From Allosphingosinicella indica (lineage in GTDB: Bacteria; Pseudomonadota; Alphaproteobacteria; Sphingomonadales; Sphingomonadaceae), in NCBI RefSeq assembly GCF_900177405.1, contig NZ_LT840185.1, positions 1,107,501-1,171,500 on the forward strand: a stretch of DNA of 64,000 nucleotides, given 5' to 3'. Positions 43,249 through 48,013 of the stretch are shown piece by piece. The translations under genes were made by a program, and so were the position numbers. Positions within the stretch are counted from its first letter, which is position 1, and the number at the start of each line of letters is the position of its first letter. The notes under the pieces were generated by a model. That model did not search any database, had not been told where the DNA came from, and worked only from the letters and a program-made list of their open reading frames with translations.

Positions 43249-44130
43249 ATGAAGCACGTCCTTGTCCTGGCCGTTCTGTTCGCGGCCGCCGCTTGCTCGC
43301 ACGCGGATGAAGCCGGTGTCGTCGAACAATCCGACGCGCTGCCGGAACAGCAGGCACCCCCTTCTGAGGCTCAGCAGGAACCGCCCGGCGCGCCGGCCGC
43401 CGATGCCGTCGCGGTGCAGATGCCGCGCATCGCCTATGCCTATCGCTTCGCCTTCCGGCTCGCGCCCGACCGGGTCGCGGCGCTTCAGGACCGGCATCTC
43501 GCGATGTGCGATGCGCTCGGCCCAATGCGCTGCCGCGTCGCCGATCTGCAAAGAGCGGCGGGCGAAGGCGAACACACTCAGGGCTCGCTCAAGCTGCTGG
43601 TCGCCGCCGACGCGGCGCGGCTGTTCGGCGATCGCCTCGCGGCTGCGGCCGACGGCGCTGGCGGCGAAACCGTGGCCCGCGCGATCACCGCCGAGGATCT
43701 GTCCAAGCAGATGGTCGATACCGAGGCGCGCATCCGCATCAAGCAGGCGTTGGTCGATCGGCTCACTGCCTTGCTGGCGACGCGGAGCGGCAACATCCAG
43801 CAGGCGGTCGAAGCCGAGCGCGCCGTCAATGCCGCGCAGGAAGAGCTGGAGCAGGCGCGCGCCTGGCTCGCCGAAATGCGCGGCCGCGTTGCGCTGTCGA
43901 CGATGGATATCGCCTATCAGTCGGGCGCCCCGCTGGCCGGTGGCTTCGCGACGCCGGTGCGCGAAGCATGGGGCGAAGTGGCCTCGCTCAGCGGCAAGAG
44001 CCTGGCGATGATCCTGATCGTGGTTGCCGCGCTCGCGCCCTGGGCGGCCGCTCTCGCCCTCATTCTGGTCGCGGTGCGGCTCTACCGGCGGCGACGGCCG
44101 CGCGCCGTGTCAGAAGCCGACGCCGAGTGA
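43249..44130 (+). CDS. DUF4349 lipoprotein
   Basis: 293 residues. Lipobox VLFAAAAC at 9-16, a Pro/Glu-rich linker, the DUF4349 domain with IAYAYRFAFRL and DLSKQMVDTEARIRIKQALVDRL, a coiled-coil stretch (about 160-215: AVEAERAVNAAQEELEQAR), then a C-terminal membrane helix (LAMILIVVAALAPWAAALALILV) followed by basic residues. Function unknown; such proteins are thought to sit in the envelope. Confidence 0.85.
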   Translation: MKHVLVLAVLFAAAACSHADEAGVVEQSDALPEQQAPPSEAQQEPPGAPAADAVAVQMPRIAYAYRFAFRLAPDRVAALQDRHLAMCDALGPMRCRVADLQRAAGEGEHTQGSLKLLVAADAARLFGDRLAAAADGAGGETVARAITAEDLSKQMVDTEARIRIKQALVDRLTALLATRSGNIQQAVEAERAVNAAQEELEQARAWLAEMRGRVALSTMDIAYQSGAPLAGGFATPVREAWGEVASLSGKSLAMILIVVAALAPWAAALALILVAVRLYRRRRPRAVSEADAE

Positions 44131-44787
44131 GAAGACGACGGTAGCGTCGGCGCGGGGGACCGTGCCGGCGCTGGTGTCGACATAAGCGGCGCCGAGGCGG
44201 ATCGGACCGAGCGCATAGTCCACGCCCAGCGACCAGTCGGTATAGTCCAGCGCGCCGCGCGCGCGGCCGACATGGCCTTTGAGGCTCCACGGGGTGAGCG
44301 GGATGCCGGCGTCGAGCGCGGCGGAAAGATAGAGGCTGTCCTCGCCGCCGATCGCATCCTGGCTCGGCGCCCAGGCCGCGCCCGCGGTGGCGCGCACCGG
44401 GCCGAGCTGGTGGCTAAGCCGCGCATAGGTCTCGACATAATCGGTCGGCCCGGCGAGCGCGGGGGAGTCGGGGAAGGCGTAATAATTGACGCCCGCGTCG
44501 ATCCGCGTGCCCGATGCGATGTCGGTGGCGTAACCGGCATAGACGTCGATCTCGGCATTGCCGTAGCGCGGATCGTCGCTGAGGCTGGCGCCGAACGCGC
44601 CGGCGTAGAAGCCGCTCGACGCGCCGATGGTGAGCGAGCCCTGCACCGACGGGTCGCCGTCCGATCGGCTGATCCCGCGAAAGCGATAGTCGCTGACAAT
44701 CTTCGCCTCGGCGCTGACGTCGGCCGCGTACGCAGGCATGACGGGGAGCAGGACAGCGGCGGTGGCGGCGAGGATTAAGATACGCAT
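44110..44787 (-). CDS. TorF-family putative outer-membrane porin
   Basis: 225 residues from ATG 44787. Signal peptide ILAATAAVLLPVMPAYA, then the hallmark KIVSDYRFRGISRSDGDPSVQGSLT, and repeated beta-strands ending in Phe (VFSLGVGF). The family (annotated TorF or TIGR02001) is a predicted small outer-membrane barrel of unknown cargo. It is divergent from the phhA leader promoter and overlaps the end of the DUF4349 gene by 21 bases. Confidence 0.85.
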   Translation of the reverse strand: MRILILAATAAVLLPVMPAYAADVSAEAKIVSDYRFRGISRSDGDPSVQGSLTIGASSGFYAGAFGASLSDDPRYGNAEIDVYAGYATDIASGTRIDAGVNYYAFPDSPALAGPTDYVETYARLSHQLGPVRATAGAAWAPSQDAIGGEDSLYLSAALDAGIPLTPWSLKGHVGRARGALDYTDWSLGVDYALGPIRLGAAYVDTSAGTVPRADATVVFSLGVGF

Positions 44788-44824
44788 CGCCGCCTCATGT
44801 CGCGTGCCGCGGCGCGGCGCAACC

Positions 44825-44853
44825 TTGACAGCGCGGCCGCAGGCACGCACCTT
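44825..44853 (+). promoter_or_regulatory. Candidate sigma-70 promoter of the phhA leader transcript
   Basis: Perfect -35 TTGACA at 44825-44830, a 17-base spacer, and a weak -10 CACCTT at 44848-44853. The expected start is about 44860, the A of the leader-peptide ATG, so the leader would be translated as a leaderless mRNA. Confidence 0.6.
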
Positions 44854-44859
44854 GGCGAC

Positions 44860-44961
44860 ATGTTGCAGCGCGACAACTCCGTCGAATCCGCCATCGCCGT
44901 TTCCGGCGTGATGGCCGCGCGCGCTTATTATTACGGCACCGCCCGGGCGGGACCGTTCTAG
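44860..44961 (+). CDS. Putative leader peptide with three consecutive tyrosines (phhA attenuator)
   Basis: 33 codons from ATG 44860; an internal in-frame ATG at 44911 would give the 16-residue MAARAYYYGTARAGPF. The Tyr codons TAT TAT TAC occupy 44926-44934 and the TAG stop is at 44959-44961. Upstream of the Tyr codons an RNA stem GCCATCGCCG/CGGC..GATGGC (44890-44915) can form. The peptide precedes an antiterminator/terminator pair and the phenylalanine hydroxylase gene. I infer a ribosome-stalling sensor of charged tRNA-Tyr; it is not a known family. Confidence 0.6.
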   Translation: MLQRDNSVESAIAVSGVMAARAYYYGTARAGPF

Positions 44962-45006
44962 CGCATTCATCTCACAAGACTGCGATCTCGAACCCACCCC
45001 GCCCGG
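44943..45006 (+). promoter_or_regulatory. Antiterminator pairing (segments 2 and 3)
   Basis: CCGGGCGGG (44943-44951) is exactly complementary to CCCGCCCGG (44998-45006). The pairing extends with GTTC (44955-44958) to GAAC (44990-44993) and CGCA (44962-44965) to TGCG (44981-44984), giving a long hairpin exclusive with the terminator. Segment 2 overlaps the last codons of the leader peptide, so a ribosome at the stop codon would mask it. Confidence 0.6.
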
Positions 45007-45024
45007 CGCTCCGGCGGGGTTTTT
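44996..45024 (+). terminator. Intrinsic terminator of the phhA leader (segments 3 and 4)
   Basis: CCCCGCCCGG (44997-45006) pairs with CCGGCGGGG (45011-45019) with one bulged C and a CGCT loop, followed by TTTTT (45020-45024). It lies 26 bases before the phhA ATG, so it controls that gene rather than ending an upstream one. Confidence 0.85.
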
Positions 45025-45050
45025 CTTTGCGTGCAGGAAAGGCTCTCTCG

Positions 45051-45935
45051 ATGTTCAAGGATGTTACCGATTTCGTGGCCACGCCGGTGGCCGAGCGGCA
45101 CGGCGCCGCGCGCGATCCGAGCCGCCCGCCGCCGGGCGCGGCCACCGACTGGACGGTGCCGCAGCGCTGGGCGGACTTCGGCGCGGAGGATCATGCCGTT
45201 TGGGATCTGCTCTTCGCGCGCCAGCAGACGGCGCTCGACGGCCGCGCGGTCGCGGCGTTCGGCGAGGGGCTGGAGATGCTCCGCCTGTCGCGGCCGGGCA
45301 TCCCCGAGTTCGGCGAGCTCAACGCGCGGCTGCAGGCGCGCACCGGCTGGACCGTCGTCGCGGTCCCCGGCCTCGTTCCCGACGACATCTTCTTCGAGCA
45401 CCTCCGTCACCGCCGCTTTCCCGCGGGCAATTTCATCCGCCGCCGCGATCAGCTCGATTATCTCGAGGAACCGGATGTCTTCCATGACGTGTTCGGCCAT
45501 GTTCCGCTGCTCGCGCTCCCGGAGATGGCGGACTTCATGCAATTGCTCGGCGAGCTGGGGCTGGCGGCGATGCAGGCCGGCGCGCTCCACCGGCTCGGGC
45601 GGCTCTACTGGTACACGGTCGAGTTCGGGCTCGCGGAAGAGGCGGGGCGGCGTGCGATCTACGGCGCCGGCATCGTCTCGAGCTTCGGCGAAAGCCGCTA
45701 CGCGCTCGACGATCCGCGCCCGCGCCGCACCGCTTTCGATCTCGAGACCGTGCTCCGCACCGCTTATCGCAGCGACGCCTTCCAGCAGGGCTATTTCACG
45801 ATTCCCCACGTCGCCGCGCTGATCGATCAGGTATCGCGCGCCGAACTCCCCGAGCTCTACGCCGCGCTCGCCGATCTGCCCGATCTCGATCCGGCGACCG
45901 GAGAGCCGATTGGCGCGGAGGACGGCGGGCGATAG
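45051..45935 (+). CDS. phhA: Phenylalanine 4-hydroxylase
   Basis: 294 residues from ATG 45051 with AGGAAAGG about 10 bases upstream. Iron ligands H145 and H150 in FHDVFGHVPLL and E191 in YWYTVEFGL; the bacterial monomeric type without the regulatory ACT domain. It converts phenylalanine to tyrosine using tetrahydropterin. It follows the Tyr-codon leader and terminator and is nine bases upstream of the metX-like gene, so both probably share the transcript. Confidence 0.95.
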   Translation: MFKDVTDFVATPVAERHGAARDPSRPPPGAATDWTVPQRWADFGAEDHAVWDLLFARQQTALDGRAVAAFGEGLEMLRLSRPGIPEFGELNARLQARTGWTVVAVPGLVPDDIFFEHLRHRRFPAGNFIRRRDQLDYLEEPDVFHDVFGHVPLLALPEMADFMQLLGELGLAAMQAGALHRLGRLYWYTVEFGLAEEAGRRAIYGAGIVSSFGESRYALDDPRPRRTAFDLETVLRTAYRSDAFQQGYFTIPHVAALIDQVSRAELPELYAALADLPDLDPATGEPIGAEDGGR

Positions 45936-45944
45936 ACAGGCGCG

Positions 45945-46910
45945 ATGCATCGTCCGATCGACCTGCTGCCGGACACACCGGTCCGCGCCTTCACGGTGCC
46001 GCTTACCGGCGCGCTCGCAGGTTTCGGGGATGCGGCGGCGTTCGCGATCGCGGGCCCGGAGAGCGCGCCGGTGGTCCTCGTGCTCGGCGGCATATCGGCT
46101 AATCGCTTTCCGGCGGTGCGCCCCGACGGCGGCGCGGGGTGGTGGCCGGGCGTCGCCGGTGCTGGCAGCGCGCTCGATCCCGCACGCTGGCGTATACTCG
46201 GCATGGATTTCGTGTCTGATCCGGAGGGTCGTCGAGCCCCCGCCAGCGCCGATGTCGCCGCGCTGATCGCCGCCGCGCTCGATGCGGCCGGGATCGCGCG
46301 CGTCCACGCCGCGGTCGGAGCATCCTATGGCGGGATGATCGCCATGCGCTTCGCGCAGGACTATCCGGATCGCTGCGCGCGGCTGGTCGCGATCTCCGCG
46401 GATGCCCGCGCGCATCCGGCCTCCACCGCGATCCGCGAGCTGCAGCGGCGCACCGTCGCGCTCGGCCTCGCGGCGGGGCGCGGACAGGAAGCGCTGTCGA
46501 TCGCGCGCGGCATGGCGATGCTCACCTATCGCACCCGCGAGGAATTCGCCGACCGGTTCGAAGGCGGCATATCGGGCGACGACGTGCTCGAATGCACCCA
46601 GCCCGGCACCTATCTCCGCGCGCGCGGCGACGTCTATCACCAGGTCATGTCGCCCGAACGCTTCCTCAGCCTTTCCGCCGCCATCGACCGGCATGTCGCG
46701 GAGCCGGCGAAGATCGCGGTGCCGAGCCTGCTCATCGGCGCGACGAGCGACCTGCTCGTGCCGCCGTCGCAGATGGAGGCGCTGGCCGGGGGCATCGGCG
46801 CAAACGCGCGCCTCGTTCTCCGTCACTCGGCCTATGGCCATGACATGTTCCTGAAGGATGCCGATGCGATTTCGGCGTTGATCGCGCCATTTTTGGAGGA
46901 GTCCGCATGA
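45945..46910 (+). CDS. metX: MetX-like homoserine O-acyltransferase (alpha/beta hydrolase)
   Basis: 321 residues. VVLVLGGISANRF (oxyanion region), nucleophile S127 in AVGASYGGMIAMRFAQ, acid Asp in LIGATSDLLVPPSQ and His in HSAYGHDMFL. The sequence around S127 and the DxxVPP segment are those of the MetX/Cys2 family. It should acylate homoserine for methionine synthesis; serine acylation is the main alternative. Shorter than typical MetX (about 370), lacking some insertions. Stop overlaps the next start (ATGA). Confidence 0.82.
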   Translation: MHRPIDLLPDTPVRAFTVPLTGALAGFGDAAAFAIAGPESAPVVLVLGGISANRFPAVRPDGGAGWWPGVAGAGSALDPARWRILGMDFVSDPEGRRAPASADVAALIAAALDAAGIARVHAAVGASYGGMIAMRFAQDYPDRCARLVAISADARAHPASTAIRELQRRTVALGLAAGRGQEALSIARGMAMLTYRTREEFADRFEGGISGDDVLECTQPGTYLRARGDVYHQVMSPERFLSLSAAIDRHVAEPAKIAVPSLLIGATSDLLVPPSQMEALAGGIGANARLVLRHSAYGHDMFLKDADAISALIAPFLEESA

Positions 46911-48013
46911 CCGCGCCCGATACGCGCAGCGCCGCCACGATCGTCGCCAGCGCCGGCGTGCGATCCGATCCCGGCTACGGCAGCCTGACGCCGCCGCTGT
47001 TCGCCTCCGACACCTACGAATGGCCGGATGCCGCTACCAAGCCGGCCTATGATTATTCGCGCACCGTCAACCCGAACCGCGCACTGCTGATCGAGGCGCT
47101 GGCGGCGCTGGAGGGCGCGGCGGGCGGCGCGGCGACGGCGTCGGGCCAGTCTGCCGTGCTGCTCGCGACGTTGCTGCTTCCGGCAGGCGCGCGGGTCGTC
47201 GCCCCGCACGATTGCTATGGCGGCACTTACCGGCTGCTGAGCGGACTGGAGGCGGACGGCAAACTCGTCACGCGCTTCGTCGACATGGCGGACGATGCCG
47301 CCTTCGACGCGGCGATGGCGTGGGGGCCTGCACTCGTCTGGATCGAAACGCCGAGCAATCCGCTGCTTCGCGTCACCGACATCGCGCGCCGCGCGGGCGC
47401 GGCGCGGGCGGCGGGCGCGCTCGTCTGCGCCGACAATACGGTGATGACGCCATGCCGCCAGCGGCCGCTCGATCTTGGCTGCGATCTCGTCATGCATTCC
47501 ACCACCAAGGCGCTCAACGGCCACGCGGACCTGTTCGGCGGCGCGCTGCTGGCAAAGGATTCGGCGCTGGTCGAGCGGATCGAATGGTGGGCCAATGCGG
47601 CGGGGCTGTCCGCTTCCGCGCACGAATGCTGGCAGACGTTGCGCGGGCTGCGGACGCTGCCGCTGCGCATTGAGCGGATGGAAGCCAGCGCGCGCGCCGT
47701 CCATGCATGGCTTGCCGAGCAGCCGGCGATCGCCGCACTCCATTATCCCGGTGACGGCTTCATGCTGAGCTTCGAGCTGGCAGGTGACGCTGCGGCCTTC
47801 CTGACGGGTCTGAACCTCCTCACCCTCGCCTCGTCGCTTGGCGGCTACGCGACGCTGATCTGCAAGCCTTCGACGATGACTCATCGCGGAATGCCACCCG
47901 AAGCGCAGGCCGAAGCCGGCATTGCACCCGATCTGCTGCGCCTGTCGGTCGGGCTGGAAGCGCCCGACGATATCATCGCCGATCTCGCCCGCGGGATCGC
48001 GGCGCTCGGCTGA
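46907..48013 (+). CDS. Cys/Met-metabolism PLP enzyme (cystathionine gamma-synthase-like)
   Basis: 368 residues. PLP lysine K201 in MHSTTKALNGH, DNTVMTPCRQRPLDLGCD and the N-terminal YDYSRTVNPNRALLIEALAALEG place it in the MetB/MetC/MetY family. Fitting the neighbour, it probably replaces the acyl group of O-acylhomoserine with cysteine or sulfide. The choice between gamma-synthase and sulfhydrylase cannot be made. Its ATG overlaps the metX stop. Confidence 0.85.
   Translation: MTAPDTRSAATIVASAGVRSDPGYGSLTPPLFASDTYEWPDAATKPAYDYSRTVNPNRALLIEALAALEGAAGGAATASGQSAVLLATLLLPAGARVVAPHDCYGGTYRLLSGLEADGKLVTRFVDMADDAAFDAAMAWGPALVWIETPSNPLLRVTDIARRAGAARAAGALVCADNTVMTPCRQRPLDLGCDLVMHSTTKALNGHADLFGGALLAKDSALVERIEWWANAAGLSASAHECWQTLRGLRTLPLRIERMEASARAVHAWLAEQPAIAALHYPGDGFMLSFELAGDAAAFLTGLNLLTLASSLGGYATLICKPSTMTHRGMPPEAQAEAGIAPDLLRLSVGLEAPDDIIADLARGIAALG

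Follow-up and report, generated by a model that had tools for sequence, protein, structure and literature searches.

Leader-peptide attenuators of amino acid operons are a well-known mechanism in Proteobacteria, where they were reportedly surveyed by Vitreschak et al. in 2004. The leader described here, located ahead of the phenylalanine 4-hydroxylase gene phhA in Allosphingosinicella indica and its relatives, resembles these attenuators in having a short ORF with repeated codons for the end product, 2:3 and 3:4 helices as alternatives, and a terminator before a gene whose role is biosynthetic, in the case of phhA probably so. Unlike them, it would sense Tyr, probably places its start codon at the 5' end of the transcript, and would control a hydroxylase usually described as catabolic. 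Escherichia coli trpL, pheL, and pheST are among the named attenuators (PMC11802643). In Sinorhizobium meliloti, the rnTrpL RNA is reported to begin directly at the leader start codon, an ATG (PMC7298713), and this alphaproteobacterial trpL attenuator is therein similar to the phhA leader, whose ATG probably also lies at the start of the RNA; set against each other by description, trpL differs in its Trp codons and in having trpE(G) downstream. aroR of Corynebacterium glutamicum shares with the phhA leader a Tyr codon and the control of aromatic synthesis, and differs in its Phe-Tyr-Phe motif, its operon with aroF, and its reported response to Phe rather than Tyr (PMC11802643). Two other lineage-restricted leader-ORF attenuators were likewise reported from comparative genomics, namely uORFC-8-2 (Cys codons before cysS in Rhodobacterales) and uORFC-13-1 (aroF in Acholeplasma), and these differ from the phhA leader in amino acid, gene, and lineage (PMC8632094). 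Putative attenuators have also been described ahead of tyrA-containing operons (PMC1173090), and the main text of a survey of premature terminators contains no mention of tyrosine or phhA (PMC2965389).

No Tyr-specific leader controlling phhA was found in the literature searched, which lay mostly outside subscription papers. Judged against that literature, the mechanism is of a known kind, while the sensed amino acid and the target gene appear to be new. We consider a ribosome-mediated transcription attenuator that would sense charged tRNA-Tyr and control phhA to be the best explanation for the locus, with a probability of roughly 0.88. A first-pass annotation had proposed this reading from the letters of the DNA, and conservation, pairing, and geometry now support it. 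If true, it would mark the first demonstration of tyrosine specificity in a ribosome-mediated attenuator and would extend this form of control to an amino acid for which the literature searched gave no such case.

Anatomy of the phhA Leader

In the window, i.e., the whole 64-kb stretch of DNA that was analysed, the leader is preceded by a Gcw_chp gene (44110-44793). Since this gene is on the opposite strand, the leader needs a promoter of its own. The features are as follows.

44825..44853, + strand: putative promoter, TTGACA at 44825-44830 and a weak -10 box, CACCTT, at 44848-44853, spacer 17 nt
44860..44961, + strand: leader peptide ORF, ATG at 44860, 33 codons, then TAG at 44959-44961
44926..44934, + strand: run of three Tyr codons, TAT TAT TAC, where the ribosome is proposed to stall
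44943..44958, + strand: 5' half of the antiterminator, segment 2 CCGGGCGGG at 44943-44951 and extension GTTC at 44955-44958
44990..45006, + strand: segment 3 and its extension, GAAC at 44990-44993 and CCCGCCCGG at 44998-45006
44997..45006, + strand: 5' arm of the terminator, CCCCGCCCGG, within the segment 3 region and shared with the antiterminator
45011..45019, + strand: segment 4, the 3' arm of the terminator, CCGGCGGGG
45020..45024, + strand: U tract of the intrinsic terminator, TTTTT
45051..45935, + strand: phhA, phenylalanine 4-hydroxylase (Pfam PF00351, Biopterin_H, 9.1e-39), ATG at 45051, the gene proposed to be controlled

The promoter, leader ORF, Tyr run, TAG, segments 2 and 3, and terminator had each been called in the first-pass annotation, and all were seen again with coordinates correct to the base. 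Segments 2 (CCGGGCGGG) and 3 (CCCGCCCGG) are perfect reverse complements of each other, as had been claimed, and GTTC with GAAC forms an additional paired block. The dual role ascribed to segment 3 was also borne out, as the terminator arms CCCCGCCCGG and CCGGCGGGG pair with one mismatch and are followed by TTTTT ahead of the phhA start codon.

A terminator scan placed a site at 45008-45020, with a stem shorter than that of the 44997-45019 hairpin, and a promoter scan of the window listed no site at the leader promoter, whose -10 box is poor. No Rfam family, the T-box included, matched in the window at gathering scores. Relaxing the threshold to an E of 10 gave seven matches, each well short of its gathering score and none of them to an amino acid leader or T-box, and a known Rfam leader or riboswitch family was excluded by the absence of a qualifying match in the window. 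The combination of three consecutive Tyr codons, a stop no more than 16 codons away, and a hairpin with a T-run within 130 nt occurred once on the two strands of the window, at this locus, and was absent from 30 dinucleotide shuffles of the window. Compared with 200 shuffles of itself, three of which reached an energy as low, the 165-nt leader had the more stable fold (z -2.6). These shuffles, and the permutations reported below, ignore relatedness.

Directly after phhA, with almost no gap, lie an alpha/beta hydrolase gene and a gene for a PLP enzyme of Cys/Met metabolism (45945-48013), which may be cotranscribed with phhA by read-through. Control of these two genes is not a conserved feature of the leader, a similar pair being absent downstream of phhA in the relatives' loci examined.

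Conservation of the Leader in Three Genera

Homologous leaders were found ahead of phhA at all 34 readable loci, comprising 22 from the window's genus and 12 from two other genera of the family, g66 and g98. The synteny with phhA that had been put forward as a check was complete, phhA being the next gene downstream at 34 of 34 loci. Within the genus, 23 of 26 genomes encoded phhA, and one leader holding a run of N (L014) was dropped, leaving the 22 readable loci. The order of Tyr cluster, stop, G+C-rich segment 2, terminator, and phhA was the same in all 22 (examples are VYYYYGSTRAGPI, YTYYYPPGTGPI, and IAYYYYFAARAETD) and in both g66 leaders. Conservation in relatives had been set beforehand as the point on which the proposal could fail; the Tyr codons and the paired segments were kept across the 22 genus loci. 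Carriers in the genus include Sphingosinicella sp. CPCC 101087 (L031), S. terrae (L032), and Sphingomonas deserti (L033). Rows with the same sequences as others (L031-L033 and L051), repeats of other loci (L079-L086 and L091), a fragment (L068), and an additional, incomplete copy from the edge of a G001 contig (L055 and L056) were dropped. This second copy of leader and phhA (G001:C1:1239-2016) is interrupted and is perhaps an assembly overlap.

We ran a covariance model, R1, over 397 genomes of the family. Outside the genus, strong matches were recovered in g66 (G093, 1.3e-20; G172, 5.3e-14) and a weaker one in g98 (G243, 3.6e-8), each with phhA downstream, and two matches (G140, 4.0e-10; G251, 1.2e-8) were plain terminators without phhA. 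Inspection of the regions upstream of phhA in 10 sampled g98 genomes revealed a homologous leader in all 10 and clustered Tyr codons in nine. The leader of S. caseinilyticus (L051) is identical in sequence to that of row L134 from g98. Terminators abound in these genomes and many weak R1 matches span little beyond one, as would be expected if a chance ORF merely stood before an ordinary terminator. Against this stand the 34 conserved loci, the lack of any occurrence in 30 shuffles, and the retention of Tyr codons across phhA genes that are ~50% identical; on conservation we reject a plain terminator with a chance ORF, which we regard as vanishingly improbable.

To describe codon content, we took as the stall window the ten codons from -48 to -18 relative to the leader stop. 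Over the 34 leaders, Tyr accounted for 102 of 340 stall-window codons (30%), compared with 1.2% for Phe, 0.6% for Trp, and 0.9% for His. At least two Tyr codons were present in the stall window of 33 of the 34 putative translated leaders and at least three in 25, with a single Tyr left in L157. The leader Tyr codons were TAT in 85 cases and TAC in 17, against 21 of each in a rough background of four window genes.

RAGP, the motif central to SecM arrest in E. coli, stands at the end of seven of the 34 leader peptides, including that of the window, and would suit an arrest peptide, where the nascent chain rather than uncharged tRNA-Tyr stalls the ribosome. The peptide end is not conserved, however, reading TGPI, RTGTD, RAETD, RAVFD, RAVETG, and others elsewhere, whereas the RNA pairing that it encodes is conserved and the Tyr cluster is the conserved feature of the peptide. 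Given this variability, SecM-like arrest is most unlikely, and RAGP is probably a by-product of segment 2.

A leader that responds to aromatic amino acids or to slow translation generally, not to tyrosine, would be in keeping with the Phe-Tyr-Phe of Corynebacterium aroR, said to answer Phe (PMC11802643), and with the stall windows that contain any Phe (3 of 34) or any Trp (2 of 34). The predominance of Tyr over Phe, Trp, and His in the stall window makes such general sensing quite unlikely.

The N-terminal half of the leader ORF was poorly conserved. The bases from the leader stop onward were strongly conserved, reading TGACGCGC or TAGCGCGC in 20 of the 34 leaders and TAGCGCAT in the window (44959-44966), and this conservation goes beyond what the pairing model needs.

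A Probably Leaderless Message

An in-frame ATG or GTG lay 35-38 nt past a TTGAC box in 23 of the 34 leaders. This arrangement was seen in every genus leader but L053 (21 of 22) and in both g66 leaders, and in none of the 10 from g98. Because the spacing puts the expected transcription start at the start codon, the leader mRNA is probably leaderless, with its ATG at about +1. A similar geometry in trpL raises the question of a second activity, since rnTrpL and peTrpL of Sinorhizobium are reported to act in trans (PMC7298713). That the attenuated RNA or leader peptide of phhA also acts in trans, adding to attenuation, would accord with the TGACGCGC or TAGCGCGC that 20 of the 34 leaders carry at the stop and that pairing leaves partly unexplained; set against the poorly conserved N-terminal half of the ORF, we hold it to be unlikely.

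Pairing of Segment 3 with Segments 2 and 4

The genus alignment, A1, comprised 21 leaders, with L053 and L051 left out of both A1 and A2 (21 of 23 given). In A1, the share of paired cells was 91.5% for the 2:3 helix and 95.7% for the 3:4 helix, and sliding the partner lowered paired 2:3 cells to 33.5-63.0%. One key 2:3 pair was G-C in eight leaders, G-U in seven, and A-U in six, and never A-C. The 2:3 covariation score in the genus was reached by 8 of 500 column shuffles. The 3:4 helix was near-invariant, with 7 of 10 pairs never varying, and its covariation (score reached by 62 of 500 shuffles) is uninformative because the helix hardly varies. Extension past segment 2 added three pairs changed on both sides, with 60% of extension cells pairing.

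Segments 2 and 3 of g98 differ in sequence, pairing GCGGTGG with CCACCGC, and 94.3% of their 2:3 cells were paired. Two g98 leaders carried a double change, from G-C to A-U, giving GCGATGG with CCATCGC. Sliding the g98 register by +3 raised covariation (0.162 versus 0.127), yet 74.3% of cells were then paired. The compensatory changes sought as a check of the first-pass annotation were thus found in the 2:3 helix, as the G-C, G-U, and A-U states within the genus and the double change in g98, and not in the 3:4 helix, which hardly varies.

Mean duplex energy was -25.0 kcal/mol with a leader's own partner, -22.0 kcal/mol with partners swapped within clades, and -19.8 kcal/mol with partners swapped between clades. 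For 27 of 34 leaders, the own duplex was better than the average of the within-clade swaps, and for the other 7 it was no better; it surpassed the average of the between-clade swaps in 31 of 34. The observed sum of duplex energies was never reached in 20000 within-clade partner permutations. Related sequences are not independent, so these pairing figures count as support and not as probabilities.

Ribosome Position and the Proposed Switch

Across the 34 leaders, 95 of the 102 Tyr codons lay at -39 to -27 from the leader stop, and segment 2 lay within -24 to +1 in every leader. With assumed footprint sizes, segment 2 would be masked by a ribosome that has reached the stop and left free by one on the sensing codons. 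We propose that RNA polymerase would start at or beside the leader ATG. With Tyr-tRNA plentiful, the ribosome would pass the Tyr codons to the stop and cover segment 2, segments 3 and 4 would pair, and transcription would end ~165 nt from its start. With Tyr-tRNA short, the ribosome would stall on the Tyr codons, and the free segment 2 would pair with segment 3 before synthesis of segment 4, allowing phhA to be transcribed. PhhA would then convert phenylalanine to tyrosine, in organisms that mostly have no TyrA.

In the window, folding predicts 2:3 and 3:4 helices that are mutually exclusive. With the ribosome placed at the stop, the predicted probability of the terminator was at least 0.8 in 34 of 34 leaders. 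With the ribosome on the first Tyr codon and segment 4 not yet made, the RNA beyond the ribosome folded with a median of -28.2 kcal/mol, compared with -18.3 kcal/mol for the terminator alone. Once segment 4 was included, equilibrium folding favored the terminator in 30 of 34 leaders even with the stalled ribosome, the window's leader being one of the four in which the antiterminator wins. Equilibrium folding was hence rejected as proof of switching, and the model has to rely on cotranscriptional kinetics, with the segments acting in the order in which they are made.

The predicted 2:3 helix takes up 7-9 nt of the terminator arm in 23 of the 24 leaders from the genus and g66, the window's included, and 2 nt in L053. 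Among the 10 g98 leaders, this overlap was no more than 1 nt in seven and at least 6 nt in three, and the switch is less clear there.

Distribution of the Leader among phhA Genes

No matching leader was found at the 80 other phhA loci screened (L022-L030, L034-L050, L052, L057-L067, L109-L131, and those of 19 TyrA-negative genomes from other genera), L057-L067 being screened by eye on the sequence. At L029, L034, L042, L048, L116, L142, and L155, Tyr-containing ORFs without a matching terminator, or the ends of longer ORFs, were present; these were counted as having no leader, which for L034, with a short ORF ending IYFYCQ near phhA, is a judgement. At L057, a gene encoding an AsnC-type regulator is divergent from phhA, as also reported in other bacteria (PMC1173090).

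In a tree of 113 phhA proteins, the 33 leader-bearing proteins were split from the 80 others by a branch with 100/100 support; the midpoint root serves for drawing only, and L054 is absent, its phhA match being a contig-end fragment. The leader-bearing proteins diverge down to ~50% identity to that of the window. One gain of the leader, with no loss in the rows examined, would be the simplest history.

Eight R1 matches without phhA (L089, L090, L092, L094, L099, and L101-L103) were ordinary terminators or gene ends with no Tyr run, and a multigene regulon was rejected as far as these eight loci go. No phhA lay near the R1 loci L093, L095-L098, L100, and L104-L108, which were checked for phhA alone. 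Since the best R1 matches listed include 1 of the 10 g98 leaders, Tyr leaders may exist ahead of genes other than phhA.

TyrA Loss and the Probable Role of PhhA

TyrA (PF02153) had no match in the complete 2.8-Mb genome containing the window. Matches over the cut-off were obtained in 6 of 26 genus genomes, compared with 344 of 397 genomes of the family. In tables compared by hand, phhA was present in 50 of the 53 family genomes below the TyrA cut-off and in 296 of the 344 with TyrA. Consistent with a biosynthetic role, 29 of the 34 leader genomes lacked TyrA over the cut-off, counting as TyrA-lacking two genomes with subthreshold matches (G021 and G192), and PhhA is therefore probably their route to tyrosine. 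In the absence of TyrA, regulation of phhA in the manner of a biosynthetic gene would make sense; for a catabolic gene, being switched on by tyrosine shortage would be unexpected. A one-to-one link between TyrA loss and the leader was rejected, given five genus genomes with both (G003, G005, G014, G015, and G024) and 19 TyrA-negative genomes of other genera with phhA and no leader (L132, L133, L137-L146, L148-L152, L154, and L155). Among the named carriers of the leader, TyrA gave no match over the cut-off in CPCC 101087 (G013) and is present in S. terrae (G005). HPD was encoded in 25 of 26 genus genomes, and tyrosine breakdown therefore exists too.

On balance, and with some reserve, we favor a leaderless, Tyr-tRNA-sensing attenuator that arose once in the phhA lineage of Sphingomonadaceae and marks a turn from catabolic to biosynthetic use around the loss of TyrA. 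PAH has been argued to be a route to tyrosine from fitness data (PMC7311316), and the leader would support, independently and from the side of regulation, a biosynthetic role for some bacterial phenylalanine hydroxylases. It could also serve as a genomic marker for a biosynthetic role of phhA and as a natural tyrosine sensor in Alphaproteobacteria.

Prephenate dehydratase (PF00800) likewise had no match in the genome containing the window and was present in 18 of 26 genus genomes. Chorismate synthase and the PhhB family were both found in this genome, and in 26 and 24 of the 26 genus genomes, respectively. This gene content points to a possible dependence on outside phenylalanine, and the organism is a likely phenylalanine auxotroph that may make tyrosine solely through PhhA. 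In other genomes, the pathway genes lie close to phhA: in G004 and G021, the next gene upstream on the same strand, ~310 nt before phhA and with the leader in between, is a prephenate dehydratase match, and in G005, G006, G013, G020, and G024 prephenate dehydratase and chorismate synthase are both within ~6 kb.
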